Positions 34,721 through 54,949 of a DNA stretch of 64,000 nt are shown here, one piece after another. The stretch lies in the IMG/VR virus record IMGVR_UViG_3300043449_000492, positions 105,070 to 169,069 of that record; one strand, 5' to 3'. A program made the position numbers and the translations under genes. Source of the stretch: a virus. The notes under the pieces are model-generated. The model searched no databases, was not told the origin of the DNA, and saw only the letters and a program-made list of their open reading frames with translations. Each line of letters starts with the position of its first letter. Position 1 is the first letter of the stretch.

Positions 34721-34721
34721 G

Positions 34722-34824: not shown

Positions 34825-34827
34825 TAT

Positions 34828-34905: not shown

Positions 34906-34923
34906 ACAGAAGAGGATAATTAA

Positions 34924-35109: not shown

Positions 35110-35118
35110 TGATTATGT

Positions 35119-35204: not shown

Positions 35205-35288
35205 GGAGGATAGCGTTCATGGTGAGCGAAGCGTCTTGAAAACGCTGCCCCCGAAAGGGTGATGGTTCGATTCCTTTATCCTCCGCCA
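35205..35288 (+). tRNA. tRNA-Ser (UGA)
   Basis: 84 bases, class II, acceptor GGAGGAT/ATCCTCC, loop CTTGAAA, variable stem CCC/GGG, T-loop TTCGATT, GCCA end. Abuts the preceding tRNA with no spacer. Confidence 0.93.
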
Positions 35289-35305
35289 AAGATTAGGTCA
35301 AAAGA

Positions 35306-35380
35306 ATGCTAAAGTTACTACTTGTGTTATGGATATCAATAGGGATTTTAGCATTTCTCTTGAGCCTAGGAGATAGATAG
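35306..35380 (+). CDS. Possible 24-residue membrane peptide
   Basis: A 24-codon frame encoding an almost entirely hydrophobic peptide (LLLVLWISIGILAFLLSL) with a charged end. No clear SD. It could be a real micro-protein or a chance frame in a spacer. Confidence 0.3.
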   Translation: MLKLLLVLWISIGILAFLLSLGDR

Positions 35381-35538
35381 ATGTAGCATGTATAGCAGGG
35401 CCTCCAAGCCTAGACATGCCTGACCGAAGCACAGCCACCTTGATTGATCGTCTATGGGTGCGTCGAGGCCTAGGAAGGTGGGGCATACGATCTGACCCTT
35501 AGAAGGAGTAGCGCCCTTCCTCTATCTTATAAGTTTAT
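35381..35538 (+). other. Non-coding structured spacer
   Basis: 158 bases between the micro-ORF and tRNA-Val with no usable ORF or tRNA. Visible pairings: GCATGT/ACATGC (35386-35391, 35414-35419), CCACCTT/AAGGTGG flanking about 35435-35480, and an AGATAG/CTATCT pairing from the upstream edge (35371) to about 35526. Confidence 0.4.
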
Positions 35539-35614
35539 GGATCCTTAGCTCAGTTGGTAGAGCGTCTGCTTTACACGCAGAATGTCGGCAGTTCGAACCT
35601 GTCAGGATCTACCA
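35539..35614 (+). tRNA. tRNA-Val (UAC)
   Basis: 76 bases, acceptor GGATCCT/AGGATCT, loop TTTACAC, T-loop TTCGAAC, CCA encoded. Confidence 0.92.
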
Positions 35615-35618
35615 ATAT

Positions 35619-35695
35619 GCCCTTCTAGCCCAACTGGCAGAGGCGTCAGTCTTAGGAACTGAAGGTTCTCCGTTCGAATCGGAGGAGGGGCACCA
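35619..35695 (+). tRNA. tRNA-Leu (UAG) in a class I body
   Basis: 77 bases, acceptor GCCCTTC/GAGGGGC, loop CTTAGGA, T-loop TTCGAAT, CCA encoded. The variable loop has only five bases, whereas bacterial Leu tRNAs are class II. It shares GCCCT..TAGCCCAA.CTGG.AGAGGC with the CAA tRNA at 36376, so the two are relatives. Confidence 0.82.
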
Positions 35696-35696
35696 A

Positions 35697-35772
35697 GGCC
35701 TTGTAGCTCAATCGGGAGAGCGCCAGCTTGTCACGCTGGAGGTAGTCGGATCGAAACCGATCAAGGTCGCCA
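35697..35772 (+). tRNA. tRNA-Asp (GUC)
   Basis: 76 bases, acceptor GGCCTTG/CAAGGTC, loop TTGTCAC, T-loop ATCGAAA, GCCA end. Confidence 0.92.
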
Positions 35773-35848
35773 GGGGGATTAGCTCAGTTGGGAGAGCGTC
35801 TGATTTGCATTCAGAAGGTCATCGGTTCGATCCCGGTATCCTCCACCA
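35773..35848 (+). tRNA. tRNA-Ala (UGC)
   Basis: 76 bases, acceptor GGGGGAT/ATCCTCC, loop TTTGCAT, T-loop TTCGATC, CCA encoded. Abuts tRNA-Asp. Confidence 0.93.
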
Positions 35849-35854
35849 GTTTAT

Positions 35855-35929
35855 AGACCTGTAGCTCAGAGGCAGAGCAGAGGACTCTTAATCCTCGTGT
35901 CGGGATTTCAAAATTCCCCAGGTCTACCA
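35855..35929 (+). tRNA. tRNA-Lys (CUU)
   Basis: 75 bases, acceptor AGACCTG/CAGGTCT, loop CTCTTAA, T-loop TTCAAAA, CCA encoded. Confidence 0.9.
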
Positions 35930-35934
35930 ATAAC

Positions 35935-35991
35935 GGGCAAGTGCCAGGGGCATTCTAGATAGATGGGGTTCGAGTCCCCTCTTGTCCACCA
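35935..35991 (+). tRNA. Truncated 57-base tRNA-like gene
   Basis: Good acceptor (GGGCAAG/CTTGTCC, A73, CCA) and T-arm (GGGG-TTCGAGT-CCCC), but only 22 bases lie between acceptor and T-stem: a TGCC/GGC A hairpin with a three-base loop and TTCTAGATAGA. One of the D or anticodon arms is missing. Probably a deletion remnant, though its ends are well kept. Confidence 0.6.
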
Positions 35992-35995
35992 TTTC

Positions 35996-36070
35996 GGCTC
36001 CATCGTCTAACGGTTAGGACAGCGGCCTTTCAAGCCGTCAATACGAGTTCGAATCTCGTTGGAGTCACCA
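35996..36070 (+). tRNA. tRNA-Glu (UUC)
   Basis: 75 bases, acceptor GGCTCCA/TGGAGTC, loop CTTTCAA, T-loop TTCGAAT, CCA encoded. Confidence 0.93.
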
Positions 36071-36079
36071 TTAAATAAG

Positions 36080-36131
36080 AGTTGCCACGCTTCCTCTATG
36101 CTTAACGAGATAGATAGCGCACCCGGCAACT
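36080..36131 (+). ncRNA. Hairpin spacer between tRNA-Glu and tRNA-Phe
   Basis: AGTTGCC (36080-36086) pairs with GGCAACT (36125-36131), enclosing 38 bases that include GAGATAGATAG. It occupies most of the gap between two tRNAs. Confidence 0.4.
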
Positions 36132-36139
36132 TACTTTTC

Positions 36140-36215
36140 GCTTCTCTAGTGTAGGTGATCCGCACGACTGTTTGAAGCACAGTAGGACTGAGTTTGATTC
36201 TTAGGGGAAGCACCA
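36140..36215 (+). tRNA. tRNA-Phe (GAA)
   Basis: 76 bases, acceptor GCTTCTC/GGGAAGC, anticodon stem ACTGT/ACAGT with loop TTGAAGC, T-loop TTTGATT, CCA encoded. The CCA overlaps the ATG of the next ORF. Confidence 0.88.
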
Positions 36216-36385
36216 TGAAACATGTAGGCGGTATTATAGGAGCAACAAAACAAGTTGACTTCTATTGTGAAGTGCCATTGAGAATAAAAAACAACAATCC
36301 TATTAACTGGAATCCAGGCATTTATCTCGATAAAAGAACATGCTATCCAGTTTTGATTATTGTTCAAGAAAGATTGCCCTCGTAG
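36215..36385 (+). CDS. Small protein embedded between two tRNAs
   Basis: 56 residues. The ATG uses the final A of the tRNA-Phe CCA and the stop lies inside tRNA-Leu(CAA), so maturation of the tRNAs would destroy the mRNA. GGGGA in the tRNA 3' part could be its SD. Sequence looks protein-like (DFYCEVPLRIKNNNPINW) but is unknown. Confidence 0.4.
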   Translation: MKHVGGIIGATKQVDFYCEVPLRIKNNNPINWNPGIYLDKRTCYPVLIIVQERLPS

Positions 36386-36453
36386 CCCAATCTGGTAGAG
36401 GCACATGACTCAAAATTATGTAGTTGTCGGTTCGACTCCGACCGAGGGTACCA
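36376..36453 (+). tRNA. tRNA-Leu (CAA) in a class I body
   Basis: 78 bases, acceptor GCCCTCG/CGAGGGT, loop CTCAAAA, five-base variable loop, T-loop TTCGACT, CCA encoded. Sister of the UAG tRNA at 35619; again lacks the long variable arm expected for Leu. Confidence 0.82.
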
Positions 36454-36456
36454 ATT

Positions 36457-36533
36457 GCTTCTGTAGCTCAACTGAATAGAGCATCGGTCTTCGAAACCGA
36501 GGGTTGTGGGTTTGAATCCTACCAGGAGCTCCA
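36457..36533 (+). tRNA. tRNA-Arg (UCG)
   Basis: 77 bases, acceptor GCTTCTG/CAGGAGC, loop CTTCGAA, T-loop TTTGAAT, CCA encoded. Confidence 0.92.
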
Positions 36534-36538
36534 TTTTT

Positions 36539-36612
36539 GCTGGCGTGGTGTAAAGGAAGCACTACTGTTTGTGGAACAGTTAGACTAGGATCGATACCTG
36601 GCGCCAGTACCA
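36539..36612 (+). tRNA. tRNA-His (GUG)
   Basis: 74 bases, acceptor GCTGGCG/CGCCAGT, anticodon stem ACTGT/ACAGT with loop TTGTGGA, T-loop ATCGATA, CCA encoded. The G-1 needed by His tRNAs is not obvious; the base before is T. Confidence 0.85.
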
Positions 36613-36620
36613 GGAATATA

Positions 36621-36649
36621 TTGACTTTCTTCTATTCCTATTGTATAAT
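36621..36649 (+). promoter_or_regulatory. Sigma-70-type promoter
   Basis: TTGACT (36621-36626), 17-base spacer, TATAAT (36644-36649), before the phosphatase gene at 36679. Confidence 0.8.
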
Positions 36650-36678
36650 GAAACATAATGTGAAAAAGAGAGGAATAG

Positions 36679-37149
36679 ATGAAGAAGGTATGGGTATTTG
36701 ATATTGACGGAACGCTTGCGGATAATGAGCATCGGCAGCATCACTTAGATGGTAAAAAGAACTGGGACGCTTTCTTTGCGGAACAGCATAAGGATGAGCC
36801 ATACCAGGCAGTTCTAGATGTTCTTCATGCTCTCGCTTTTGATCGCTGCAAGGTGCTTGGTGATAGAGTTATCATTGTTACTGCCCGTGACGAGCGGTTC
36901 CGTGATGATACACTTGATTGGCTGCATAAGCATATCGAGTTTGATATATCCGATAGTGTCTATATGCGTCCTCTGGGTCATCGTGGTAATGACGATGTTC
37001 TAAAGGTCGATATCATCAAGCAGTGGCTTGTTGATCATCCTGGTTATAAAGTTGGCGCCATCTTTGATGATCGTCACCGTATCATTGATGCGTTTCGTAA
37101 CGAAGGTTGGTATACCTTCGAGTGCAACCAGGCTCGTAAAGAGTTTTAA
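36679..37149 (+). CDS. HAD phosphatase resembling the T4 Pnkp 3'-phosphatase domain
   Basis: 156 residues with HAD motifs: FDIDGTLADNEHR (nucleophile Asp), IIVTARDERFRDD (motif II Thr), KVDIIKQW (Lys) and AIFDDRHRIIDAFRNEG (acidic motif). The order and the VTAR, KxxII and IDDR-type segments match the C-terminal phosphatase domain of T4 polynucleotide kinase; the kinase domain is absent. Located among tRNA genes, so RNA end-healing is a reasonable inference; a nucleotidase is the alternative. tRNA-Ile starts on the next base after its stop. Confidence 0.78.
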   Translation: MKKVWVFDIDGTLADNEHRQHHLDGKKNWDAFFAEQHKDEPYQAVLDVLHALAFDRCKVLGDRVIIVTARDERFRDDTLDWLHKHIEFDISDSVYMRPLGHRGNDDVLKVDIIKQWLVDHPGYKVGAIFDDRHRIIDAFRNEGWYTFECNQARKEF

Positions 37150-37225
37150 TGTCCTGTAGCTCAATCGGTAGAGCGCAGTCCTGATAAGACTGAGGTAGTT
37201 GGATCGAAGCCAACCAGGACAACCA
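37150..37225 (+). tRNA. tRNA-Ile (GAU)
   Basis: 76 bases, acceptor TGTCCTG/CAGGACA, loop CTGATAA, T-loop ATCGAAG, CCA encoded. Confidence 0.92.
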
Positions 37226-37229
37226 ACAT

Positions 37230-37321
37230 GCGTGGGCGACAACGACGGTGGTGTTGTGACGGACTGTAAATCCGTTCCCTTTGCGGTAACATTGTAGGTT
37301 CGACTCCTACCCCACGCACCA
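37230..37321 (+). tRNA. tRNA-Tyr (GUA)
   Basis: 92 bases, class II, acceptor GCGTGGG/CCCACGC, loop CTGTAAA, long variable arm, T-loop TTCGACT, CCA encoded. Confidence 0.93.
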
Positions 37322-37337
37322 AACTTGGAGAAGTAAA

Positions 37338-37640
37338 ATGAAAAAGTTAATCGCTGCTATTATTGCTCTTGCTTTACTCGCTACGCCAGCTCAGGCATGG
37401 TATCGTGGTGGATATGGAGGTTACGGCTGGCGTGGTCCTGTCTATAATAACTACAATTATTATGGTGGTTGGGGTGGAGGCTGGAACAACGGCTGGGGTG
37501 GTTACGGTGCTGCTGCTGGAATCGGTCTCGGCTTAGGATTGCTTGGTGGAGCTATTGCTTCTCAACAGCGTTATTATGGTGCTGCTAATTGTCCTGTGTA
37601 TGATTCATGGGGTTACATTGTAGCCTATACTTACTGCTAA
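37338..37640 (+). CDS. Secreted Gly/Tyr-rich protein
   Basis: 100 residues. Sec signal peptide (LIAAIIALALLATPAQA), then a Gly/Tyr/Trp-rich low-complexity region (repeats of GGYGG/GGWGGG) and a C-terminal pair of cysteines. Small proteins of this composition occur in alphaproteobacteria and may have been acquired from a host. GGAG SD. Function unknown. Confidence 0.6.
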   Translation: MKKLIAAIIALALLATPAQAWYRGGYGGYGWRGPVYNNYNYYGGWGGGWNNGWGGYGAAAGIGLGLGLLGGAIASQQRYYGAANCPVYDSWGYIVAYTYC

Positions 37641-37648
37641 AGGTTTAT

Positions 37649-37723
37649 TCCCCTGTCGTCTAATTGGTAGGACGCTAGATTCTGGTTCTTGCTATCTAGG
37701 TTCGAGTCCTAGCGGGGGATCCA
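37649..37723 (+). tRNA. tRNA-Gln (CUG)
   Basis: 75 bases, acceptor TCCCCTG/CGGGGGA, loop TTCTGGT, anticodon stem with one T-T mismatch, T-arm CTAGG-TTCGAGT-CCTAG, CCA encoded. Last tRNA of the cluster. Confidence 0.82.
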
Positions 37724-42779: not shown

Positions 42780-43021
42780 GAAACGATTATAAAGAACTAA
42801 TCGATCAAATGAATGAACTGGCTGACTGGGTTGAGAAACACAACTCAGTCAATTCTTTTTCTGCACCACGCTGGGCAGCGATTACGATTGCTCGCTTGGA
42901 GGAAGAAAATCATCAGATGAGATTGCGTCTAAACAAAAAAGACGTTACTATTGTCGAGCGATTCAATCGAGTCATTGGTATGATTAAGCTTTGGTGGTAT
43001 CTAAGATCAACTCGTAAGTGA
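42776..43021 (+). CDS. Small helical hypothetical protein
   Basis: 81 residues, helical, with basic C-terminus; ATGA overlap with the upstream gene and 15-base overlap with the convergent gene at 43007. No family recognised. Confidence 0.5.
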   Translation: MRNDYKELIDQMNELADWVEKHNSVNSFSAPRWAAITIARLEEENHQMRLRLNKKDVTIVERFNRVIGMIKLWWYLRSTRK

Positions 43022-43744
43022 AAACGGATTCTTCTTTGACGATCCTGGCTTAACGGAGAACTGACTTGCAGGCATGTTCTTAATTTTAATCTCTGCCTGA
43101 ACCTCATAATACTCGGAACGGGTAGCCACTCGAACCTTAAAGTCGCCTCGCCCAGATAGAACTGGAATCTTTGTAGAAAGCTTAAGAGGATTTTTCTTTG
43201 ATATCATATAGAAATCATCGCCCGCTTGCATGTAGTAAGCGGGTTCTTTCTTACCAATGGTATAATGATCCGTAACTAGTTTACCAAGATTATAGTCATT
43301 CTCATTTGCGATATAACGATTGACACCATCCTGATCAAAATACTTTTTCATAACATCTAAAGGCACTGCATTAGGATCTGATAGCATGCCCTTGTTTGTT
43401 GGAATTATAATTTTAGCAACCGGAATGCCTGAAAACTTGGCAATCTTTTTGATAAAATCTTTTGCATCTGTGGATGCATTTAGAATATCAACAGCAGCAT
43501 GAGCGGCAGGAGTCTTATATGTCGTTTGCCATTTTCCCTTAGCATAGAACACACGAGGATTGGAAAGATTATCCGTATGATTCATCTTCACCTCGACCCA
43601 CGTTCTAGCAGGCTTATTATTAAACTTTTCAATTAGAACATCTGATAACGCAGTATCGGCCGAGGGCCTTGTTGCTTTCATCCCCTTGACAGAATTAATC
43701 GCCTTAGCTATGTTAGCTTCATAAAGATCGGATGCAACACTCAT
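43007..43744 (-). CDS. Putative PD-(D/E)XK nuclease-like protein
   Basis: 245 residues on the minus strand. SADTALSDVLIEKF followed by ARTWVEVKMNHTDNLSNPRVFY gives a D...E-x-K pattern, with an N-terminal helix, consistent with a PD-(D/E)XK core. The C-terminal half is strand-rich. SD GAGGAG and an ATAAATAA box lie upstream. It is divergent from a second protein with a related pattern. Fold assignment is tentative. Confidence 0.5.
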   Translation of the reverse strand: MSVASDLYEANIAKAINSVKGMKATRPSADTALSDVLIEKFNNKPARTWVEVKMNHTDNLSNPRVFYAKGKWQTTYKTPAAHAAVDILNASTDAKDFIKKIAKFSGIPVAKIIIPTNKGMLSDPNAVPLDVMKKYFDQDGVNRYIANENDYNLGKLVTDHYTIGKKEPAYYMQAGDDFYMISKKNPLKLSTKIPVLSGRGDFKVRVATRSEYYEVQAEIKIKNMPASQFSVKPGSSKKNPFSLTS

Positions 43745-43813: not shown

Positions 43814-44797
43814 ATGAAACTATCCGTATCTGATCTTTTTAAAAGATATTCAAAAGGACCACTCGTCGGCAAACCTAGAATTGTTAAGTTTGCTGAAAAG
43901 TTCAAGAACGGCGAAGAGTTTGAATTGAATACTGGAGAAAAGGTCAAACTCAAATTTAATCCAGAGCAATACAATATTCTTATTGAATCTTCAAAATATC
44001 CTTCTAAGTTTCAGAAAGAACTGCAGAAGGCTCAGTTTCTAGCAGTAGCTGGTAAATCTTATTATAAGATAACTGACTTCAAGAAGACGATTGAGTTTGA
44101 TGGAAAGCCCGATCGACCACCTGCAGGTATTGAAGGTGAAACGAAAACTGTGAATAGACTAAACTTAATGTTTAGTAATCTGATTAAGAAATATAGCTAC
44201 ACTAAAGGTGTTCCATTGATCATCAAGGGAAAGACTGTCTATGTTAGTCAATGTATGAAAGTTCCTGGAACACCTAAAGCCGATCTGGCATTGTTAAATC
44301 CTAAAGGCGAAGAAGTCGCATGGATATCATATAAGATGGGTAAGAGTGTTAAAGACTTTCAACAATGGGGAGGCATAAGCGATCCAGCGATGCAAGCCTT
44401 TCCACAGGTTCAAGATTTTATTAAAAAGATGGCAGCAAAGTTTCCGCAGGGTATGAAATCAGGCAATAATGCTGGAATGAAAATTAAAGGACCGAACTCA
44501 ACCAAGCTAAAGAATAAAGCTGTCTATGGAGTTGACTGGGAACCAAATGCCAAGATGGGACGAAACAATGTTAGTTACGTTATTCAAGGTAGAATAGATA
44601 TTAAACAATCTGGTAGTAAATATGTTCTCTATAGTTCAAATGCACATGCTTATGAAAATGGTGATCGATTAAAGAGTAGTGAAGATCCTATTTTCTATGC
44701 AAAATATACAGGTGATCGTGGACAGTATGGAGTAAAAAATTCTAGAATGACAATAAGCCCATATGCAGGTTCAAACATTAAGGAATGGTTAGATTGA
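43814..44797 (+). CDS. Putative nuclease-like phage protein
   Basis: 327 residues. PGTPKADLALLNPKGEEVAWISYKMG fits D...(S)-x-K of restriction-like nucleases ('KaDi...g..v..iSlK'), followed by DFQQWGG. The same arrangement occurs in conserved proteins of T4-like cyanophages with no assigned role. GAGAGGAA SD. May be a nuclease or a structural protein built on that fold. Confidence 0.5.
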   Translation: MKLSVSDLFKRYSKGPLVGKPRIVKFAEKFKNGEEFELNTGEKVKLKFNPEQYNILIESSKYPSKFQKELQKAQFLAVAGKSYYKITDFKKTIEFDGKPDRPPAGIEGETKTVNRLNLMFSNLIKKYSYTKGVPLIIKGKTVYVSQCMKVPGTPKADLALLNPKGEEVAWISYKMGKSVKDFQQWGGISDPAMQAFPQVQDFIKKMAAKFPQGMKSGNNAGMKIKGPNSTKLKNKAVYGVDWEPNAKMGRNNVSYVIQGRIDIKQSGSKYVLYSSNAHAYENGDRLKSSEDPIFYAKYTGDRGQYGVKNSRMTISPYAGSNIKEWLD

Positions 44798-46035
44798 TTA
44801 GACTTACACAATATCTCAATGAAGCTGCGGCTGAAAAAGACCGTCACCTCACACATATTGAGGATGCTGTTCTAGAAGGCGGTGTTGCTGGAACTCGTAA
44901 TGCTATTGAGTTTCTTCGCTCTCTCCGAGACATGTTTGCTGATGATGGTCAAACATTATCGGAAGCAAGAGGTGGACTTATTCTAAGAACCAAGTTCGAT
45001 GGTGCGCCTGCTATCTATGCAGGTATCAATCCAGAGAATGGCAAGTTCTTTGTCGGCTCTAAGTCTATCTTTGCTAAGAATGCCAAACTCAATTATACGG
45101 AAGCTGACATTCGTGCTAATCATGCTGGAGGTCTTGCTGATAAACTATCACAAGCACTCAAGTATCTACCAGCACTTGGTATTCAAGGTATTGTGCATGG
45201 CGACTTCATGTTCTCTAAGTCTGATCTTAGTCCTCAGACAATCGACGGAAAAAGATATATCACCTTTCGTCCAAACACAATCACATATGCTGTGCCAGAA
45301 GGAACTCCACTGGCTAATCAAATCAAAGCTGCACAGATCGGTATTGTCTTTCATACAACATATACTGGTAAGACGATGCAGACTCTATCAACTCACTTTG
45401 ACATTGATATTTCTGCTTTTAGAAAGTCTAGAAATGTTTGGTTCAGAACAAATAGATTACTAGACGTTACATCTGCTGCAAGACTATCGCCAGCAGAGAA
45501 TAAGAGACTAACCGACATTCTATCACAAGCAGGTTCTTTGTTTAGAACTATTCCAGCCTCATTGCTCAACCAAATTGCATCAAACGAGACATATCGTATT
45601 CCTATTATGACTTATATGAATCAAAAGGTTCGTTCTGGTGAGCATATGGGTTCTAACTTCTCTAAAGAGGTAATGGATTTCGTTGCTGCTAAATACAATA
45701 AGACTATTAATGACGCTAAACGTCCTGATACTAAAGCAAATCGTAGAAAAGAAAAAGATGCAGTCATGCGTTGGTTTCATAACAATCAAGCAGGACTAAG
45801 ATTAATCTATCAATTGCAAAATCTCTTGATTGATGCTAAGCTGCTTTTGATTAGAAAGTTTAATCAGGTTAATGACATTGGAACTTTTCTACACACACCT
45901 TCAGGCGGTTATAAAGTAACAACCCCTGAGGGATATGTTGCTGCTTGGTCATCTGGTGGTGATGCAGTAAAGCTAGTCGACCGCATGGAGTTTAGTCGAG
46001 CAAACTTCCTAGCCACAAAGAACTGGGGAAAGTAA
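44794..46035 (+). CDS. KxDG ligase-like protein with capsid-targeting-like N-terminus
   Basis: About 413 residues. RTKFDGAPAIYAG has the K-x-D-G motif I of DNA/RNA ligases and capping enzymes; FFVGSKSIF, GIVHGDFMF and GIVFHTTYTG may be later motifs. Similar proteins of unknown role occur in T4-like phages. Start: an ATG at 44785 sits directly on AAGGA, while TTG 44794 has AAGGA nine bases upstream and gives MIRLTQYLNE|A, which looks like the T4 internal-protein targeting peptide ending in [LI]-x-E. I prefer the TTG. Confidence 0.6.
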   Translation: MIRLTQYLNEAAAEKDRHLTHIEDAVLEGGVAGTRNAIEFLRSLRDMFADDGQTLSEARGGLILRTKFDGAPAIYAGINPENGKFFVGSKSIFAKNAKLNYTEADIRANHAGGLADKLSQALKYLPALGIQGIVHGDFMFSKSDLSPQTIDGKRYITFRPNTITYAVPEGTPLANQIKAAQIGIVFHTTYTGKTMQTLSTHFDIDISAFRKSRNVWFRTNRLLDVTSAARLSPAENKRLTDILSQAGSLFRTIPASLLNQIASNETYRIPIMTYMNQKVRSGEHMGSNFSKEVMDFVAAKYNKTINDAKRPDTKANRRKEKDAVMRWFHNNQAGLRLIYQLQNLLIDAKLLLIRKFNQVNDIGTFLHTPSGGYKVTTPEGYVAAWSSGGDAVKLVDRMEFSRANFLATKNWGK

Positions 46036-46155
46036 ATGAAAGTCAAAGAGCATTGTGGTTGTGAGACTGGTCATCCAGAGACTAAGCCCGTGCCTATTAT
46101 TCAGACAATCAAGAAGATTGTTAAGGCTGCAAGAAAGAAAAAGACTTATAAATAA
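46036..46155 (+). CDS. 39-residue basic peptide
   Basis: 39 codons directly after the ligase-like gene. N-terminal CGCETGH then a strongly basic tail (KAARKKKTYK). Its last codons overlap the TATAAATA box of the next gene. Plausible real micro-gene; function unknown. Confidence 0.5.
   Translation: MKVKEHCGCETGHPETKPVPIIQTIKKIVKAARKKKTYK
46147..46154 (+). promoter_or_regulatory. T4-like late promoter TATAAATA
   Basis: Exact T4 late consensus 26 bases before the multidomain gene at 46180. Confidence 0.75.
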
Positions 46156-46179
46156 ACAATAAGATACCGCAGAGGTAAG

Positions 46180-48144
46180 ATGAAGAAAATTGTATTTACA
46201 TTTGGACGTTATAATCCACCTACGATTGGGCATGCAGAGTTAATCAACTACACAGTTAGACTAGCTCAAAAGCTTGGTGCCGAGCATCGTATCTATACTT
46301 CCCAATCACAAGACCCATCTAAGAATCCTTTATCAGCAAGACAGAAGCTATCGTTTCTTCGTCAGATATTTCCTGGCGTTAACTTTGTAAACGATGCTTC
46401 GGCTAAATCTGCTTTTATCATTTGCAAGCAACTAGCTGACGCTGGCTATGACGATGTTACATTCGTCGTAGGTGATGATCGTGTCGCAGAGTTTAAGACT
46501 GCTTTAAGCAAGTATGTCAAGCCTAAGACAGCAAAAGACTTCAATCCTAAGATTCATTATCCATTCAAGAAATTTCAGGTCGTTTCATCAGGCTCTCGTA
46601 AAAGAGGTGTGTCTGGAACGGATCTTCGTAACTATATTCGTAAGGGAGACTTTGCTTCATTTGCCCGAGTCTCTGCAGCAAGAGATAAATCATTGGCGAA
46701 AAAGATTTTCGATACAACAAGAGCGCAGCTAAGAGAAGAATCACTTAACGAGGAAATGACTCGTAAGGATTTCGACTCACATCTTAAAAGTTTTATTGAC
46801 TTTTCATGTGAGAAGCTTGGCATTCTAGAAAAGCCTAAGCTATCATATAAAGAACCAGACGAACAAGGAGAGCAGCCATCGTTTGCTGCATACTCACCTT
46901 CTGCAAAAGAAGTTATCATCATGACGAAGAATCGTCATCCGATGGACGTTTTTAGATCAGTGGCTCATGAGCTAGTGCATCATAAGCAGAACGAAGACGG
47001 CAAGCTAAACGATGTTGCCAAAGAAGGTGCAACAGGTTCACCAATAGAAGACGAAGCAAACTATATGGCTGGACGTATCATGCGTTGGTTTGGCAAAGCT
47101 AATCCACATATGTTTGGCAAGTCTCATATCATCGAGCATAAAGCAATTATTCTTGCAGGCACACCAGGTTCTGGCAAGGATAAGATTCTTAAAGAAGCTA
47201 TTCTGCCTCATGGATTTAATGAAGTATCTACAGACACATTTGACGTTAAGAAAGTCAATGAGAATGTGGTTGTCAATGGTTCAGCAGGCTATGAGCGTAT
47301 TCGTTTCATTAAAGAGCAGCTAGAGAATGCAGGCTATGAAACAATCATGGTCTTCGTTAATACAAGCAATGAAGTCTCCAAGCAGCGTAATGAAGCCAGA
47401 GCTGACAAGGGCGGAAGAGTTATTAATGAAGCAGTTCGTTTCACCAAGTGGAAGAATGCACAGGATAATCTTTCCAAGTATGATATGATATTTGAAAAAG
47501 TTATCGAGGTCAAGAATGATCTGGACCTTAATCAAAGTGCAACGGTCATTAAAGAAACATATGACAAGCTAATGTCATCTGTCTCAAAAGAGATTGCGGA
47601 GTTTACTCTAGCTGAATCAGATCGTCAATTTGAGCAAATGCTAAACGAAGTTGGTGGCGCTGGTAACTTTGGCACAACGAAACTTGCAAATCGTTATAAG
47701 AAAGATACTCCTGGTCAAGAGCCAGGCAAGCGTCGTAAGATGGGCATTTACAAGCCGCAGGTTAAAGTCTTCGGCAATCTTCCTGGTATGGGTGATCGTC
47801 TTGGCCAGACATTTACATCGGCTAAGAATCCATCATTTGTCGGTGACACATCTTCCGATCCAAATCCATTCATGAATATGTCCCCGATCGACCGCTGGAT
47901 GGTCAAAGAAGAAACCCGAAAGAGATTTAAACAGAAGTATGGAGAGCTAGCCGATCAAAAGATGAGGGAAACGGCTAATAGAATTAAAAGTGAAAGTTTG
48001 ATTGACCCGTATATGGGGTCTATGGGTTCAACACCCAATGCGTCGAACATTGATGATGTAAGACCTGATGTAAATGCGGAATTCGAGAAGATGAGCATTT
48101 TCAGAAAAGTCAAAGCTAGAAATAAGCTAAATAACAAGAAGTAA
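46180..48144 (+). CDS. Nucleotidylyltransferase-zincin-P-loop kinase fusion protein
   Basis: 654 residues. Domain 1 (1-about 187): HxGH-type nucleotidylyltransferase, FTFGRYNPPTIGHAEL and VSGTDLRNYI (the IS-x-T-x-x-R motif), as in NMN adenylyltransferases. Domain 2 (about 192-310): metallopeptidase-like with VAHELVHHKQNE (H-E-x-x-H). Domain 3 (about 318-480): P-loop GTPGSGKD at 325, zeta-toxin/kinase-like. A disordered basic tail follows. Two prohead-protease-like sites, SLNE191 and MLNE490, fall at the domain borders. A perfect late promoter precedes it, so it is a late product, perhaps packaged and cleaved. Confidence 0.75.
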   Translation: MKKIVFTFGRYNPPTIGHAELINYTVRLAQKLGAEHRIYTSQSQDPSKNPLSARQKLSFLRQIFPGVNFVNDASAKSAFIICKQLADAGYDDVTFVVGDDRVAEFKTALSKYVKPKTAKDFNPKIHYPFKKFQVVSSGSRKRGVSGTDLRNYIRKGDFASFARVSAARDKSLAKKIFDTTRAQLREESLNEEMTRKDFDSHLKSFIDFSCEKLGILEKPKLSYKEPDEQGEQPSFAAYSPSAKEVIIMTKNRHPMDVFRSVAHELVHHKQNEDGKLNDVAKEGATGSPIEDEANYMAGRIMRWFGKANPHMFGKSHIIEHKAIILAGTPGSGKDKILKEAILPHGFNEVSTDTFDVKKVNENVVVNGSAGYERIRFIKEQLENAGYETIMVFVNTSNEVSKQRNEARADKGGRVINEAVRFTKWKNAQDNLSKYDMIFEKVIEVKNDLDLNQSATVIKETYDKLMSSVSKEIAEFTLAESDRQFEQMLNEVGGAGNFGTTKLANRYKKDTPGQEPGKRRKMGIYKPQVKVFGNLPGMGDRLGQTFTSAKNPSFVGDTSSDPNPFMNMSPIDRWMVKEETRKRFKQKYGELADQKMRETANRIKSESLIDPYMGSMGSTPNASNIDDVRPDVNAEFEKMSIFRKVKARNKLNNKK

Positions 48145-48173
48145 TTCAGTTTAACTTTTAAAAGGAATCAAAA

Positions 48174-50012
48174 ATGTTTTCAAATAGATTTAATACAAAG
48201 AATGATCCCATTCTTGAAGCCGTAGAAGGAGCCATGAAGGATGGCGAAGTTCGCCGTCAGGCCGAAGCACTCGTCAATGAGGAGTTCGGTGTATATTCAC
48301 GCAAGGCAGTTGTTCGTGAACACCTTGCGGCATATGATGCTCGCCTTGAGGAAGCATATAAGTGTATGAAGGAAGGTGATGATACTATACCAGGAAGAAA
48401 GTTGACTCCTGATGGAAAACTTCCTCCTGTTGGTAGAGGCATGTCATCAAAAGAAATAGATCCATATAAAGGAATGGATTTAACTACTAAGGGTGTTAAA
48501 GAAGAACTAGCTAAGAAGGACTATGACAAGGACGGCAAGATTGAGTCACCAAAAGACGAAGTTTGGGGTTCTCGTCTTCGTGCCGCTAAGATGGCAGGCA
48601 AGCTTAAGGAAGAAGAACAGATTGACGAAGGTGCACACAAGGCACTAAAAGCAGCAGGCTTCACCGCTGGTCGTAAAGGATCTGATACAGGCTTTGGTCG
48701 TTCTTATTCTCATCCAAAGCATGGATCGGCTTATGTTGATGCTGATGGTTTTGCACACTTTGGTAGCGGTAAGAAAACTACTGTTACTCATGGTGCAAAA
48801 GATACTGCTGCACATCTTGGTAAGTTGAAAGAAGAACAGATTGATGAAGTCTCAAAGAAGACTGCCATTCGTGCCTATCGTGAGCGTGAATCGCAGCACA
48901 GAGGTGAATACAATCAGGGTTGGGGTAGTGAAGGACAGAATCCTAACGATGACTATGGTGAGCGTTCAGGTAAAAAGGCCTTAAAGACTCTTTCAAGAAT
49001 TGGTAAAAAGTTTGGATCAAAAACAGCAGCACAAGCAAAGCGTGGTGCCGAGGTAGATTCCTCTGGTAGAGGACATGGTGGAAAAAGTGATTATCTATCT
49101 GCTAAAGAGCGTGTGTATAGCAAGTTCTCTAAGCCTACATCTAAAAAGGGCACGAAAGAGAGAAAAGACTATATGTCAATGAATAAAGGCAGATTTGCTA
49201 AAGAAGATTACGAACTTGATGAAGCAGCATACTCAGCAAAGGCTGGTCGTGCTGGTAAGGATCTAGGAAAGCCTGGCAAGTCATTCAAGAAGATTGCTGC
49301 TAAGGCTGGTGAACGCTACGGTTCAGAAGAACGTGGTAAGAGAGTGGCTGGTGCTATTCTTAAGCGTATTCGTGCAAAGCATATGGAAGAGCAAGTAACC
49401 TTTATGCCATCAGCAGGAGCTAAGCCTAAAGTATCTGGATTTGGTGCTGAATTTGCCAAGCAGAGAGCATCAGGTGCAAAGACATTTTCTTATAACGGTA
49501 AGTCTTATTCAACCGCACTTAAGGGTTCTTCGGCACCTGCTTCTAAACCTGCTGCAACATCTACAGCCACAGATTCGGGTACTCGCACACCAGTAGCTGC
49601 AACAAAGACAAGCACAGGTATTAGCAAGTATGGAACAGCAACAGGTAAAGACTTTGCTTCAATTGATAAGAAGTCTTCTGCAGTTCCAAATTCTCCAGCA
49701 AGACCAGTCGATAGAGAAACTACATCAGCAGGTCCAAACACGGGCGGCGAAAAGGGTATCACTAGCGGCAACACAGTTTCGCTTGATAGACCAACGCCAA
49801 CAGATAAGCCAGCTACATCACCATCACTAGGCGTTTCAAAGGATAGCACTCCAGGCGGCGTCGATGCTTTCGAGAAGAAGGTAAATACTCCTTCAGCTCC
49901 TCCAGTAGCTACTAAGCCAAAGGGTGGAATGGTAACAGGCGGTACTTTTGAAGAATCTGTACAGCTTGGTGAATCAGTTCAAGTTGGAACAAGTAAGTAT
50001 AGGATCGTTTAA
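48174..50012 (+). CDS. Modular basic polyprotein-like virion protein
   Basis: 612 residues, mostly low-complexity and basic. After an N-terminal helical domain (about 1-65) come modules separated by near-identical acidic linkers: EEEQIDE152, EEQIDE225 and DYELDE350, each followed by a helix such as VSKKTAIRAYRERE. The linkers match the [IL]-x-E rule of T4-type prohead protease sites. The last 200 residues are Ser/Thr/Ala/Pro-rich and likely disordered. Late gene by position; candidate scaffold or internal head protein. Confidence 0.6.
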   Translation: MFSNRFNTKNDPILEAVEGAMKDGEVRRQAEALVNEEFGVYSRKAVVREHLAAYDARLEEAYKCMKEGDDTIPGRKLTPDGKLPPVGRGMSSKEIDPYKGMDLTTKGVKEELAKKDYDKDGKIESPKDEVWGSRLRAAKMAGKLKEEEQIDEGAHKALKAAGFTAGRKGSDTGFGRSYSHPKHGSAYVDADGFAHFGSGKKTTVTHGAKDTAAHLGKLKEEQIDEVSKKTAIRAYRERESQHRGEYNQGWGSEGQNPNDDYGERSGKKALKTLSRIGKKFGSKTAAQAKRGAEVDSSGRGHGGKSDYLSAKERVYSKFSKPTSKKGTKERKDYMSMNKGRFAKEDYELDEAAYSAKAGRAGKDLGKPGKSFKKIAAKAGERYGSEERGKRVAGAILKRIRAKHMEEQVTFMPSAGAKPKVSGFGAEFAKQRASGAKTFSYNGKSYSTALKGSSAPASKPAATSTATDSGTRTPVAATKTSTGISKYGTATGKDFASIDKKSSAVPNSPARPVDRETTSAGPNTGGEKGITSGNTVSLDRPTPTDKPATSPSLGVSKDSTPGGVDAFEKKVNTPSAPPVATKPKGGMVTGGTFEESVQLGESVQVGTSKYRIV

Positions 50013-50239
50013 TGAAAAGAACGAAAATACAGAGAGGTGCCTTGCATAGAGGCCCAGCATCTTTAGCTGGCACCTCTCGTCATAGATATGCTGCTTCAAA
50101 GAAACTAGCTGAGGAAGCCAAAGAGGCAACCAAGCAGGTAGTTAATAAAGTGAACAAAACAAAGAAGCAGGGCGATGTTGTCGAGATTAATCCGGAGAAG
50201 GATATTCTTGGCAACGGGTTACAGCAACAATCATCATAA
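50012..50239 (+). CDS. Small basic hypothetical protein
   Basis: 75 residues, Lys/Arg/Ala rich helix. Start overlaps the upstream stop by one base. Charge suggests DNA or scaffold binding; family unknown. Confidence 0.5.
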   Translation: MKRTKIQRGALHRGPASLAGTSRHRYAASKKLAEEAKEATKQVVNKVNKTKKQGDVVEINPEKDILGNGLQQQSS

Positions 50240-50254
50240 AGAAGGAAAACTAAA

Positions 50255-50869
50255 ATGCCACTATGGGGTAAAGTAGACAACGCTGCTAATTCAGACATTG
50301 CAGCAGTCATGCAAGTCAACAAGTCAATCACATCAGCGAATCAGACTTCGCTTTATAAGAATGTTACACCAGGCGATTTCTTCCCTAACGTCGCTATCGG
50401 ACAGTTCGCTGCCGACGTTAACGAAGTAAGAGCTAATCCAACAATTCCACACGCTGGCTGGGTCCTTCGTAAAGAAGGCACAGGTCTTCGTGCTGGTCGT
50501 GTAACATACGAAGTTCTAGTTGCAGGTCGTTCAATCGGTTCACCAGACGGTACCGATGACACATATTTCCCAGATTATAGACTAGCAATCGGAACTCAGC
50601 CAGTAAGCACAAATGGTGCAGGCAACGTAACACTTTCAGTCGTTGCAACATCTACACCATCAGGTGCTACATTCACATATCTTTGGCAGCGTAATGCCGG
50701 CGGTGGATGGCTCACTGTTGCCAATACAGCTGGTCTATATTTCAACAATACATCACCAACTCTTACAGCAAATGCTGCAGTTGCAAATGCAAACACCTTC
50801 CGTGTTCTCGTTTCCGCAGCTGGTGCAAACACAGTTACATCTGCAAACGCTATCGTAACAACACCATAA
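50255..50869 (+). CDS. Structural protein with Ig-like domain
   Basis: 204 residues. N-terminal part (MPLWGKVDNAANSD ... HAGWVLRKEGTGLRAGRVTYE) is a block shared with T4-like phages; the C-terminal 90 residues are an Ig-like fold (SGATFTYLWQRNAGGGWLTV ... TLTANAAVANANTFRVLVSAAG). Likely a virion surface or head decoration protein. AAGGAA SD. Confidence 0.65.
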   Translation: MPLWGKVDNAANSDIAAVMQVNKSITSANQTSLYKNVTPGDFFPNVAIGQFAADVNEVRANPTIPHAGWVLRKEGTGLRAGRVTYEVLVAGRSIGSPDGTDDTYFPDYRLAIGTQPVSTNGAGNVTLSVVATSTPSGATFTYLWQRNAGGGWLTVANTAGLYFNNTSPTLTANAAVANANTFRVLVSAAGANTVTSANAIVTTP

Positions 50870-50880
50870 GGAGAGCTTAA

Positions 50881-52818
50881 ATGAAGACTTTCCTTGATTA
50901 TCTAAATGAAGATGTTGTGCCTGCCGCTCTAGTAACGAATGGCACAATCTCTCTCGACAACGAAGACACAAGGGCCTCAGTTAATATGGCCCTTGCTAAA
51001 GTTACGGCAGATAGTTCTATTACACCATACATTGCGTTGAATAGAATCTCTAAGGCTCTATCTTACTTCTCTATCATTCTACCCAAGAGAATTTATCTTG
51101 AAGGTGCAAAGGGTGTTGAAGTTCATGAGATTCTTCAATTTGGTGACAAGATGGGCATGACTAACCAGGGTGAATTTATTCGTGACGTTCCTGGGAAGTT
51201 TTATCTATTCATGCAATATGGTATGAACTCTCCAATGGGTTATGGCGGCCAGCTTGCCTATCCTTCAATGGGCGGAACATTTAGAGTATTTGCTAAGGTT
51301 GTTGACAAAGAAGAACTTGATAAGCTTATATCAATGGCAGAACTTGCGCTCGCCGAAGAGTGTGATGCAGAAATGCAGCAAAAGAGAGCAAAGATGCTTG
51401 CTCCTCATGATACGATGAATGATGTTACTTCTGATCCTAAGAAAGTCGGTAACAAGAAAGCCGTTGCTGATTCTAATAAAGGTATCAAGGAAGATGCAGG
51501 CGGTTTTATCAGAGGCTTGTTCACTGGAGGCAATGCTGATACTAATAAGAATAAAACACAGCAGGCCGTTCAAGATACTGCACAATCTACTGCTAATAAA
51601 GCATCTGGTGGTATGTTAGGTTCATTGACAGATAAGCTATCTGTACCAGGAGCAAAAGCACAAACTGTTAAAGAAGAACAGATTGATGAACTATGGGAAC
51701 CAATTACAGGTCATGCCAAGAAGGGATCAAATGAACGTAAGCGTAAAGCAGTTCAGATGGCTCTTGGTAGAAAACACAAGGGCGAAGAAGGTTGGAATGA
51801 TAAAATCAATCCACAAAATGCTGCCCTAAGAATGGGTCGTGCCCTACAAAAGAAGGGTGTGACTAAAGAAGAAACCATCAACGAAATCTCTCAAAAACTT
51901 GCTCTAAAGGCAATGAAGGCGTCCGAAAAGCGTTCCGACGATGAGTGGGAAGCAGATGCGGCCTATGATCGTCTATCTGATTGGAAAACACATGATGCCC
52001 GTGCCCATCGTCTTCGTGGCCATATGAAAAGAAAGTTTGGCAAAAAAAAGATCAAGACTGATGGAGAAGATCACCTAAAAGACTATGATGGATATAGTGG
52101 TAGACAAGGCGTTCATACTGTAAACACACACGGCAAGAGAGCAGGACTTCCTCCAAAGGAGCAAGTAAACCGTCTAAAGAATAACATTAGATATTCACTT
52201 GGAAAGCATCGTAAGCCAAATCTTCCTGAGGAAACACAGATTAATGAAGTTGGCGATACAACTCGTGGTAAACTTGCTCTAAAATCTTATGCTAGAAAAG
52301 CGGATAAGTGGGTTGATAAAGAAACTGGTAGATTGTCATTAGATTATGATAAAAAACCAAGAGATATCGGCAAAGAACTAGATAAGATTGATAGACGCAT
52401 TGGATACTCAAAAAAAGCAAAAAGAATGGCAGAAGAAACTCAGTTAGACGAACTAAGTCGTGGAACTGTTGCAAGATATAAGAAGGCAGCAGTTGACGAC
52501 AAGAAGTCTGCCGAATCTTCTGCCGAGACTTCACACGCTCACAGAAAGAACCGTGCGCTTCCTCTAGCAAAGCGTAATGCTTTTCATGATGAAGAAAAGT
52601 GGCTAAAGGGCATTGCAAAGAAGCGTGAAAAAGGCATTGCAATGGCTGATAAGCGCCTTGAAGAAAAACTAACCAAGGGCATGTCTGCTGCTGATGTTAT
52701 CCATGACTTCGTTCATTCTGATGATCCTAAGTTCAAGGGCAAGTCAGTCAAAGAAAGACAGAAGATGGCCCTAGGTGCTTATTACGGTATGCATCCGGAG
52801 AAGTCTAGTAAAGAATAA
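50881..52818 (+). CDS. Modular polyprotein-like virion protein with capsid-targeting-like N-terminus
   Basis: 645 residues. The N-terminus MKTFLDYLNE|D closely resembles T4 internal-protein targeting peptides (MKTYQEFIAE|A). A folded domain to about residue 165 and a linker follow, then modules divided by QIDE270, TINE335, QINE456 and QLDE524. Each begins a basic helix (ISQKLALKAMKA, LSRGTVARYKKA). The C-terminus (ADVIHDFVHSDDPKFKGKSVKERQKMAL) is a block common in T4-like phage head-region proteins. If cut at every site it yields pieces of about 260, 65, 121, 68 and 121 residues. Confidence 0.6.
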   Translation: MKTFLDYLNEDVVPAALVTNGTISLDNEDTRASVNMALAKVTADSSITPYIALNRISKALSYFSIILPKRIYLEGAKGVEVHEILQFGDKMGMTNQGEFIRDVPGKFYLFMQYGMNSPMGYGGQLAYPSMGGTFRVFAKVVDKEELDKLISMAELALAEECDAEMQQKRAKMLAPHDTMNDVTSDPKKVGNKKAVADSNKGIKEDAGGFIRGLFTGGNADTNKNKTQQAVQDTAQSTANKASGGMLGSLTDKLSVPGAKAQTVKEEQIDELWEPITGHAKKGSNERKRKAVQMALGRKHKGEEGWNDKINPQNAALRMGRALQKKGVTKEETINEISQKLALKAMKASEKRSDDEWEADAAYDRLSDWKTHDARAHRLRGHMKRKFGKKKIKTDGEDHLKDYDGYSGRQGVHTVNTHGKRAGLPPKEQVNRLKNNIRYSLGKHRKPNLPEETQINEVGDTTRGKLALKSYARKADKWVDKETGRLSLDYDKKPRDIGKELDKIDRRIGYSKKAKRMAEETQLDELSRGTVARYKKAAVDDKKSAESSAETSHAHRKNRALPLAKRNAFHDEEKWLKGIAKKREKGIAMADKRLEEKLTKGMSAADVIHDFVHSDDPKFKGKSVKERQKMALGAYYGMHPEKSSKE

Positions 52819-52827
52819 ATAAAAAGT

Positions 52828-52857
52828 GCGGGCCACGATGTTACAGCATCTGCCCGC
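52828..52857 (+). promoter_or_regulatory. Hairpin upstream of GIY-YIG gene
   Basis: GCGGGC (52828-52833) pairs with GCCCGC (52852-52857) with an inner GATG/CATC; an AATAAATA late-like box lies a few bases before. It lies between the polyprotein stop and the endonuclease and may terminate or shield its SD. Confidence 0.4.
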
Positions 52858-52882
52858 TCTATGTCTAATAAGGAGACACAGC

Positions 52883-53443
52883 ATGTTCTATATTTATGCT
52901 TATCTTAGAGAAGATGGCACACCCTATTATATTGGCAAAGGTAAGGGTGAACGATCAAACTATAAAAGCAAGAAGCATAGAATCAAAGTTCCTGATTTTG
53001 ATAGAATAGTCATTATGGAATCTAATCTAACAGAGATTGGAGCTTTTGCTCTAGAACGATTTTACATTCGTTGGTATGGTCGTAAAGATATCGGCACAGG
53101 TATTCTTCGTAATCTCACTGATGGAGGAGACGGTGTCTCAGGTATCAGATTTTCTGATGAAACAAAAAAGAAAATGAGTGACGCTAGAAAAGGGAAATCT
53201 AGATCACCAGAAACAATAGAAAAGATTAGAAAATCGCATCTTGGTAAAAAGCATACCGACGAAACAAAGAAAAAGTTAAGTGAGAAGCGTTCAGGAGAAA
53301 AACGCAAACCTCTATCCGAAGAAACTAAGAGAAAAATTGGTGAAGCAAACCGTAGATGGATGACAGGAAGAGTAATGTCGGACGAAACTAAGAAAAAGAT
53401 AAGTGAGACTATGAAAGTTGTTAGACGGCAATGTTCGACTTAA
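52883..53443 (+). CDS. GIY-YIG homing endonuclease
   Basis: 186 residues. N-terminal GIY-YIG domain ([23 protein letters not shown], catalytic Arg and Glu in [11 protein letters not shown]) followed by four NUMOD3-type repeats ([16 protein letters not shown] and variants). Free-standing mobile endonuclease inserted between two late genes. AAGGAG SD. It overlaps the next gene by 13 bases. Confidence 0.88.
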
Positions 53444-53817
53444 ACGACGAAAACTTCTATCTATATGCTGCAAAACATTATGAGTCTTCTCGTCTTATAC
53501 AGCATGAACTGGATGAGGATCTCAAACATATTAAATATATTAAAAGACTCCTGAGAAAGTATCGACAAACAGGTGAGTTTAAGGAACGTCTTATCCTCAA
53601 TCATGTAATAATTCTTGCTAATGTTTTTGGTGTCGAAGCAACAGTCAATATGCTCTTTCTCAAGATTGACAATGAAGACTATCCCATTCTAAAGACCTTA
53701 CTCATTTACCTAAACTATTTGCCAACACGATTGAAACTTACATTCAATAAATATACCATAAGACAAGAAGAGATTCCTGTCGATCTAACTATCGCAGACA
53801 TACTGAGGAACCTATGA
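53431..53817 (+). CDS. Conserved T4-like hypothetical protein
   Basis: 128 residues, helical. [27 protein letters not shown] and [13 protein letters not shown] are blocks I recognise from T4-like cyanophage proteins located near structural genes. Function unknown. Confidence 0.7.
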
Positions 53818-54431
53818 CTAAGACAATTATAGAATCATCAATAGGTAAGTTAACCAAGTATGTTGTGGACTCAGGACGCAATATGCAACATCAGTATGAT
53901 AAGCGAAAAGAACTTAGAGACGCAGGCAAGCACAAAGATCCTGAAATGGATAAGACAGACGACAATCTTAGAAAGCGTCAACGTGGTCTAAGTCTAGCTG
54001 CTAACGCAATTCATAGAAAAATAGATAACAAACAAGTAAGAGAAGAGGCCGTTGTCAATAATGTAGGATCAGGCGCTATTGCTGGAGCAGGTATAGGTGC
54101 AATGGGCGAACCAGGTGTTTCTAAGAAAGCACAAAGAAAGCATAACAAAAATCAGTCAACACCTACACCTGTTATTCTAAGTATGTTAAGACGCAAGGCT
54201 CCAAATGGTCTTGCTGAAGAAACATTTGCTGGCGCTACAGTATTTGAAGTATCATCAAAGATATTTCATAACCTCACACATGCCAAGCGTAAAGGTAAAC
54301 ATTGGAGAACATATCTTGATGAAGATGACTCCTATGCAGAGATTAGAGAATGGGCAAGAAAGAACAAAGGCCCGATTGTAGTTAGAAACGAATGCACAGG
54401 CGAAATGAGATACGTCAGATATAGGAGTTAA
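53814..54431 (+). CDS. Conserved late-region hypothetical protein
   Basis: 205 residues: basic N-terminal helical part, a flexible Gly-rich segment (AVVNNVGSGAIAGAGIGAMGEPG) and a C-terminal domain with THAKRKGKHWRTYLDEDD...IREWARKN, seen in other T4-like phages. GLAE|E may be a further prohead-protease-like site. ATGA overlap upstream. Confidence 0.6.
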   Translation: MTKTIIESSIGKLTKYVVDSGRNMQHQYDKRKELRDAGKHKDPEMDKTDDNLRKRQRGLSLAANAIHRKIDNKQVREEAVVNNVGSGAIAGAGIGAMGEPGVSKKAQRKHNKNQSTPTPVILSMLRRKAPNGLAEETFAGATVFEVSSKIFHNLTHAKRKGKHWRTYLDEDDSYAEIREWARKNKGPIVVRNECTGEMRYVRYRS

Positions 54432-54433
54432 GA

Positions 54434-54949
54434 ATGTCAGAACTATGTAAGAAAATATTTCCACACGAAGATCCAGTTAATCTAAATAAGTTCTTTGGTG
54501 ATCCTCGTGGTAGTAACGGACAAGTAAGTAGAAAGTGGTATGCAGAGAACATCGTTAAGTGGACTCCACCTTATCCTCTATTCTATTCAGATGGTAAGAA
54601 AACACCACTAAGAACTCTCTTGCTTCACAAGAAGGTTATTGCTGTTTACACTTCAGCGTTTGAGGAAGTAAAAGCGAACTTCACACCAGCAGAGATTAAA
54701 GAGAATCATCTTGATATCTGCGCTGGCACATTTAACTATCGTCCAATGAGAGGCGGCTCAAGACTATCAGTTCATTCTTGGGGCATTGCTATTGATATCG
54801 ATCCTGCAAGAAATCCATTCCCTTCTACTTGGAGAGAGGGAATGTTAAATCATGAGTTTGCTGATATATTAGAGAAGCATGGTCTATGGTGGAGAGGTCG
54901 TCCAGGTGATAGGGACCCAATGCACTTTCAATGCGCTTGGAGAAAGTGA
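54434..54949 (+). CDS. Peptidase M15 (L-Ala-D-Glu/D-Ala-D-Ala type endolysin)
   Basis: 171 residues. Zinc-binding pattern of M15: LSVHSWGIAIDIDPARNP (H...D) and DRDPMHFQCAW (H). No signal peptide. Cleaves the peptide part of peptidoglycan, probably as an endolysin or virion-associated enzyme. Directly followed by a holin-like gene. Confidence 0.88.
   Translation: MSELCKKIFPHEDPVNLNKFFGDPRGSNGQVSRKWYAENIVKWTPPYPLFYSDGKKTPLRTLLLHKKVIAVYTSAFEEVKANFTPAEIKENHLDICAGTFNYRPMRGGSRLSVHSWGIAIDIDPARNPFPSTWREGMLNHEFADILEKHGLWWRGRPGDRDPMHFQCAWRK

Follow-up and report, generated by a model that had tools for sequence, protein, structure and literature searches.

RESULTS

A late gene block encodes modular proteins with candidate protease sites

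We analyzed a 64,000-nucleotide window (record positions 105070 to 169069) of the 169,069-base IMG/VR record IMGVR_UViG_3300043449_000492. Its source is a T4-like aquatic phage with late proteins assembled from swappable modules. At 43.8 to 54.4 kb the window holds a block of late genes whose products, as we consider likely, are internal head proteins synthesized as modular chains and cut by a protease. Table 1 lists the features of the block; genes are named by the window position of their first letter. The T4-type late motif N[AC]TAAATA was found upstream of 43814, 46180, 48174, and 53814. Of the remaining 83 plus-strand genes in the window, 4 have it, compared with 4 of the 10 in the late block (P = 0.004). 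The motif also lies upstream of the gp18-, gp19-, gp20-, and gp23-type genes.

An earlier note on this DNA had proposed that several of these late proteins carry sites for a prohead protease of the T4 gp21 type, which cleaves after L/I-x-E (PMC9026906). A search of the rest of the genome found an S77 (gp21-type) protease gene at record positions 80574 to 81221, outside the window (Pfam PF03420, E = 3.2e-36), so the enzyme on which the proposal depended is present. A portal-like gene lies to one side of it, and the genes for the scaffold and the major capsid protein lie to the other (all three named by sequence resemblance, gene order, and the annotation of related records). The protease was found in all five relatives tested (164 to 175 kb). 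The major capsid (gp23-type) protein has RTLNE/AAPTN at the expected maturation place (slashes mark the cut or joint), and the site, ESR[TA]LNE/AAPTN, is kept among relatives as TLNE, ALNE, or LTE. When this known substrate was scored with the same rule, TLNE/A fitted. Judged by sequence, the capsid maturation site follows the [IL]xE rule of the candidate cargo sites.

All sites in the earlier note were confirmed, namely, YLNE13 in 44785, SLNE191 and MLNE490 in 46180, QIDE152, QIDE225, and ELDE350 in 48174, and YLNE10, QIDE270, TINE335, QINE456, and QLDE524 in 50881. Compared with shuffled sequences, [IL][DN]E occurred 5 times versus 0.6 expected in 50881 (P = 5e-4), 3 times versus 0.23 in 48174 (P = 0.0015), and 3 times versus 0.58 in 46180 (P = 0.02), an 8- to 13-fold excess in 50881 and 48174. 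Counting of bare [IL]xE was dropped as nonspecific and uninformative alone because P < 0.005 was likewise reached in unrelated proteins, one of them homing-endonuclease-like.

Table 1. Features of the late block (window positions; + denotes the plus strand)
Feature	Position	Strand	Remarks
Late gene, 327 aa	43814..44797	+	Late motif 30 nt upstream; 34% identity to DLP6 AAY80_065, the syntenic neighbor of DUF6267 in DLP6
DUF6267 protein, 416 aa	44785..46035	+	Pfam DUF6267, 2e-100; pI (isoelectric point) 9.8 after residue 13; packaging predicted
Capsid-targeting-like N-terminus MVRLIRLTQYLNE, then AAA	44785..44823	+	Motif in N-termini of relatives
T4-type late promoter motif TATAAATA	46147..46154	+	33 nt before 46180; also precedes gp19- and gp23-type genes
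Polyprotein-like enzyme chain	46180..48144	+	Pfam, Foldseek, AlphaFold model
Sites QLRE186 and SLNE191	46729..46752	+	Between adenylyltransferase and peptidase-like domain
Site HIIE319	47128..47136	+	Between peptidase-like and kinase-like domain; [VI]xE in 37/37 relatives
Site MLNE490	47641..47649	+	Linker with pLDDT (predicted local distance difference test) <50 (479-499) before C-terminal piece
Mosaic protein, 612 aa	48174..50012	+	Lacks a targeting peptide; basic pieces (pI 9.3-10.1) behind the sites
Junction EEEQIDE152	48621..48629	+	Homology blocks of many relatives end there
Junction KEEQIDE225	48840..48848	+	VSKKTA module follows
Junction ELDE350	49215..49223	+	AAYSAK module follows
Mosaic protein, 645 aa	50881..52818	+	MKTFLDYLNE N-terminus; four junctions; basic pieces of 7-14 kDa (pI 9.6-10.2)
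Targeting-like N-terminus MKTFLDYLNE	50881..50910	+	M1, F4, and E10 invariant
Junction KEEQIDE270	51682..51690	+	In pLDDT<50 segment 231-286
Junction KEETINE335	51877..51885	+	In pLDDT<50 segment 325-338
Junction EETQINE456	52240..52248	+	In pLDDT<50 segment 385-475
Junction EETQLDE524	52444..52452	+	LSRGT module follows; pLDDT<50 at 508-524
Late gene, 205 aa	53814..54431	+	Late motif 68 nt upstream

Two N-termini resemble T4 capsid-targeting peptides

In T4, the first 10 residues of IPIII are enough for head targeting, and an Asp at residue 10 inhibits IPIII processing (PMC9026906). It was proposed in the earlier note that two N-termini here are of this kind, and conservation across relatives bore this out for 44785 and 50881. 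For the former, the YLNE motif stands, and the start is more probably the ATG at 44785 (MVRLIRLTQYLNE); a start at 44794 (MIRLTQYLNE) would imply a TTG codon. Annotated phage records with the DUF6267 protein number 465 and come almost entirely from cyanophages, and all 71 distinct N-termini of its relatives fit [FYLHI][ILVF]xE, nearly all as [FYH][LI]xE. The residues ahead of the conserved HLxH core vary while the motif is kept, and most N-termini have A, S, or G directly after the motif. In the 50881 N-terminus the invariant positions held across 16 aligned sequences, and a 652-aa protein encoded next to the portal gene begins MKSFKVFINE and has modules and an EETQIDE joint in common with the window proteins. 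These comparisons suggest that the N-terminal peptides of 44785 and 50881 behave like T4 capsid-targeting sequences.

Candidate sites lie at module boundaries

Since tblastn searches of annotated phages with 48174 and 50881 gave no match at 1e-5, relatives of these proteins were taken from IMG/VR. Among about 50 mosaic relatives, 114 of the 347 distinct starts of high-scoring segment pairs fell at [IL][DN]E sites, compared with 26.0 when the sites were rotated within each protein (P ≤ 5e-4, uncorrected for relatedness among the proteins; a start was counted if it lay in a 12-residue span with [IL][DN]E as its end). As alignments are broken by the masking alone, a version with masked motifs was rejected in favor of the unmasked rotation test. 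Profile searches further showed [IL]xE directly ahead of 16 of 17 KAPPGA modules, 39 of 40 of the LSKKTL type, and 9 of 9 KNVPTN modules, versus a background of 11%; the VSLGKL profile, the start of which was trimmed, was left unscored. The motif stood directly before 8 of 19 copies of the AAYSAK module, and most of the other copies shown have M or V in place of I/L.

The same boundaries were found where modules are fused in one phage and separate in another. The P-loop kinase is a separate gene in HTVC008M, starting MIPFILKE/GLYDPG, close to the HIIE319 boundary of 46180, and is fused at the same residue in about 24 polyproteins (xLxE/GINDPG or GVHDKG). MKSFRNHLNE/KNVPTDP stands alone in one phage, and the module lies elsewhere behind QLDE, YLEE, LLE, and similar sequences. 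A wide automatic search for fused and stand-alone forms placed 76 of 205 within 4 residues versus 12% by chance; it takes in truncated open reading frames at contig ends, and only clear families were used. Together with the rotation test, the profiles, and the AlphaFold linkers described below, these results upheld the claim that the sites are concentrated between modules.

The HVA1-type module had [ILV]xE ahead of it in 57 of 70 IMG/VR loci, counted regardless of protease status. Among annotated phages with the protease, the sequence ahead of the module is LTE in C48C1, LDE in immuto, and LEE in HTVC008M, with the exceptions of MME in Melnitz and VEE in the portal-side protein of this phage. 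By contrast, an adjacent [IL]xE was found in 0 of 11 phages without an S77 match, in which the module starts at or near the initiator Met; one of these, CRP-6, has LEE several residues upstream.

At the DNA level, the 18-mer GAAGAACAGATTGATGAA is repeated at joints of unrelated modules in 48174, 50881, and relatives, and is a possible recombination linker. A scan of the collection with a degenerate junction DNA pattern returned six loci only.

46180 is a chain of enzyme domains

The domains of 46180 are, in order, a nicotinamide mononucleotide/nicotinic acid mononucleotide (NMN/NaMN) adenylyltransferase fold, an M78-like zinc-peptidase-like domain, a P-loop domain (polynucleotide/adenylate kinase-like, zeta-toxin family), and a basic C-terminal piece. 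Pfam gave CTP_transf_like and zeta-toxin/AAA_33 matches and a weak M78 match, and Foldseek matched NaMN adenylyltransferases and polynucleotide or adenylate kinases. The two sites that the earlier note had listed in this protein fared differently: SLNE191 is mostly kept (P1 E in 21 of 27 relatives), while MLNE490 is not, as discussed below. The invariant sites are instead HIIE319 and QLRE186, the latter with P3 I/L and P1 E in 37 of 37 relatives. The AlphaFold model (mean pLDDT of 71.9) falls below 50 at residues 185 to 191 and 479 to 499, and these predicted linkers coincide with sites 186/191 and 479/490.

In relatives (L018 4528-6804, L092 2499-4670, L179 3747-6188, and L030), a HicA-family toxin-like module lies directly behind site 186, flanked by two [IL]xE sites. 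Giant chains of the 46180 type (1100 to 1850 aa) add SET, HNH, ParB-like, and DUF6321 modules; two chains of 1681 to 1849 aa (L199 9908-15457 and L196 3645-8690) start with the same adenylyltransferase, and the L199 chain has SET and HNH matches.

Mosaic proteins 48174 and 50881

Every site of 50881 lies within or at the edge of low-confidence AlphaFold segments, which cover half the protein. The pieces that follow the joints of 50881 and 48174 are 7 to 27 kDa with pI values of 9.3 to 10.2, and the first piece of each chain is mildly acidic. The pieces resemble the T4 internal proteins in size and charge.

Two further mosaic proteins, having modules and joints in common with the window proteins, are encoded at the position of T4 genes 67/68, outside the window (L005 15978-17936 and 17947-19161; record 75978-79161). 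These are the 652-aa protein and a 404-aa protein, whose genes lie between the portal and protease genes; neither gave a Pfam match to the T4 core families, the only match being DUF6321 in the second.

Homologues were detected in virion preparations of relatives

Mass spectrometry of S-CREM2 virions detected a cytidylyltransferase, an S-adenosylmethionine hydrolase, an APH-like kinase, and a Cas9-annotated protein (PMC10665884, Table 3). The N-termini of these proteins fit the targeting pattern: MKNFSSFLTE, MKDFDSFLEE, MKRFDAFLTE, and a 25-residue one ending RFASFMAE. The cytidylyltransferase (_140), the next gene product (_139), and _136 were detected in S-SZBM1 virions (PMC9146016), and NMN adenylyltransferase (NMNAT) was detected in S-SCSM1 virions (PMC9602691). 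The virion-detected proteins of relatives thus include the homologue of 46180. In S-CREM2, a loose targeting pattern did not separate detected from undetected proteins (P = 0.25; P = 0.08 without structural proteins). A strict pattern, chosen when some of those N-termini were already known to us, was found in 5 of 28 detected nonstructural proteins versus 3 of 167 undetected proteins (P = 0.0018).

The Cas9-annotated protein, S-CREM2 gp12 (L216 7704-10313, minus strand), is the one with the RFASFMAE start; the Cas9 label is doubtful because the protein has no Pfam match at 0.01.

Other features near the block

The start of the 53814 protein looks by eye like the S-x-GKL-x-KY modules of 50881 relatives. 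Between 50881 and this next conserved late gene lies a NUMOD3-containing endonuclease-like gene (52826-53443). A lone minus-strand gene adjoins the block (43007-43744); its 245-aa product has no family match, and a WVEVKMN stretch in it could be nuclease-like. Directly after the block, 54434-54949 encodes an M15-type peptidase, likely a lysis enzyme. The window also carries 23 tRNA genes clustered at 32299-37723.

DISCUSSION

It is probable that the phage described here packs its particle with enzymes and small DNA-binding proteins in the form of chains that can be cleaved. We infer the following steps. Targeting-type N-termini (44785, 50881, and the 652-aa portal-side protein) would bring chains into the prohead core. 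There, before DNA packaging, the S77 protease would cut behind [IL]xE, so that the targeting peptide is lost and the modules come apart. The freed pieces would be small basic polypeptides like T4 IPI to IPIII, together with enzymes: the NMN/NaMN adenylyltransferase type, the zinc-peptidase-like domain, and the P-loop kinase, and in relatives HicA-like, SET, HNH, and ParB-like modules. Some pieces would probably go into the host with the DNA. Since any module flanked by sites would be freed, phages could exchange modules at the joints.

Several observations weigh against this reading. No cleavage product of an internal site has been observed, and the virion detections in relatives may be carry-over, as authors of such proteomes themselves allow (among them PMC9602691). 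Both 46180, which begins at the first strand of the adenylyltransferase domain, and 48174, which begins MFSNRFNTKNDP, are without an N-terminal targeting peptide in this lineage, while cyanophage homologues of 46180 do carry such N-termini (MRFRQFIIE and MKNFSSFLTE). We therefore class the two proteins as working like T4 capsid-targeted internal proteins rather than as members of that group. MLNE490 is weakly conserved (P1 E in 9 of 30 relatives), and DUF6321 and many DPCWKGY modules have no motif directly ahead. Of 117 internal junctions, 74 have I, L, or V as the P1' residue, whereas A, S, or G predominates in this position at targeting peptides. Finally, codon usage does not fully account for the conservation of junction DNA, which extends to joints with unrelated flanks. 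This favors recombination at the joint and makes the argument from peptide conservation weaker, though it does not remove it.

This last point raises the possibility that the junction is mainly a DNA linker (GAAGAACAGATTGATGAA) for module recombination and the peptide motif an uncut by-product. Among junction pairs with the same peptide and unrelated flanks, 239 of 806 have an identical 18-mer, compared with 26.6 expected from codon usage. However, the peptide follows the rule even at places whose DNA cannot match (the DUF6267 targeting peptides and joints such as LNE, LKE, LTE, and IVE), and the same module is without the motif in phages without S77. We consider the linker as the main role unlikely; the two roles may coexist at the joints.

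On the other hand, the proteins could be scaffold-like prohead core proteins, cut by the protease and mostly expelled like T4 gp67, gp68, and gp22, so that the motif is real and nothing is delivered. The stretch from the portal to the protease gene, where T4 has genes 67 and 68, indeed encodes related proteins with the same motif and common modules, and the T4 core proteins likewise have several gp21 cut sites. The window proteins differ in their folded enzyme domains and in being encoded elsewhere, and these domains of 46180, along with the detection of its homologue in virion preparations of relatives, make a purely core role improbable.

It is also rather improbable that [IL][DN]E is a prohead-core docking motif, repeated for avidity and left uncut internally. 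The T4 targeting peptide both binds the core and gets cut (PMC9026906), and the P1' difference noted above would fit docking, whereas the position of sites in linkers and at module edges, with the equivalence of fused modules and stand-alone genes, is what separation predicts. That Glu- and Lys-rich proteins match a loose rule by chance, conceivable given how frequent [IL]xE alone is across many proteins, is very hard to reconcile with the conservation, the boundary test, and the natural controls.

Comparison with known systems places the proposed chains near the T4 internal proteins IPI to IPIII and Alt (PMC9026906). These share the short N-terminal peptide ending in [LI]xE, the S77 protease, and small basic proteins, but each T4 protein loses one propeptide (Alt at both ends), whereas the chains here have several modules, enzymes, and several internal sites. 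In the case of the inner-body and ejection proteins of phiKZ, 201phi2-1, and SPN3US, a related protease cuts many head proteins behind Glu, some of them multiply; SPN3US differs in having sites in propeptides and the rule A-x-E, and excerpts of the sources do not describe exchangeable enzyme modules (PMC9026906 and PMC10052503). The NMNAT/cytidylyltransferase of S-CREM2, S-SZBM1, S-SCSM1, and S-CBWM1 virions has a homologous domain, which in S-SZBM1 also adjoins DUF6267. The cyanophage protein is shorter and has its own targeting-type N-terminus, while the domain here is fused to peptidase-like and kinase-like domains. The authors of the cyanophage studies left its packaging unexplained, and our literature searches turned up no relevant work on DUF6267, DUF6321, or polyprotein cargo. 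Phages are known to restore nicotinamide adenine dinucleotide (NAD) (PMC12774641), and one may speculate that an adenylyltransferase entering with the DNA could counter NAD-depleting defenses.

Modular, cleavable polyprotein cargo would be a new variation on T4 internal-protein packaging. It would offer a sequence rule to predict head-borne proteins across a very large group of aquatic T4-like phages and a possible reason why cyanophage virion proteomes repeatedly show metabolic enzymes, and it points to many undescribed candidate early-acting effectors. The predicted cut positions are exact, and existing virion mass spectrometry data could be searched for them. More tentatively, with the chances somewhat below even, aquatic T4-like phages (Kyanoviridae relatives) may have a general capsid-cargo cassette of a targeting peptide and exchangeable effector modules, in which each joint serves twice, as a cut site in the protein and as a recombination linker in the DNA. 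If so, a single gene would deliver several proteins as the DNA enters, toxin-like and NAD-related enzymes among them.

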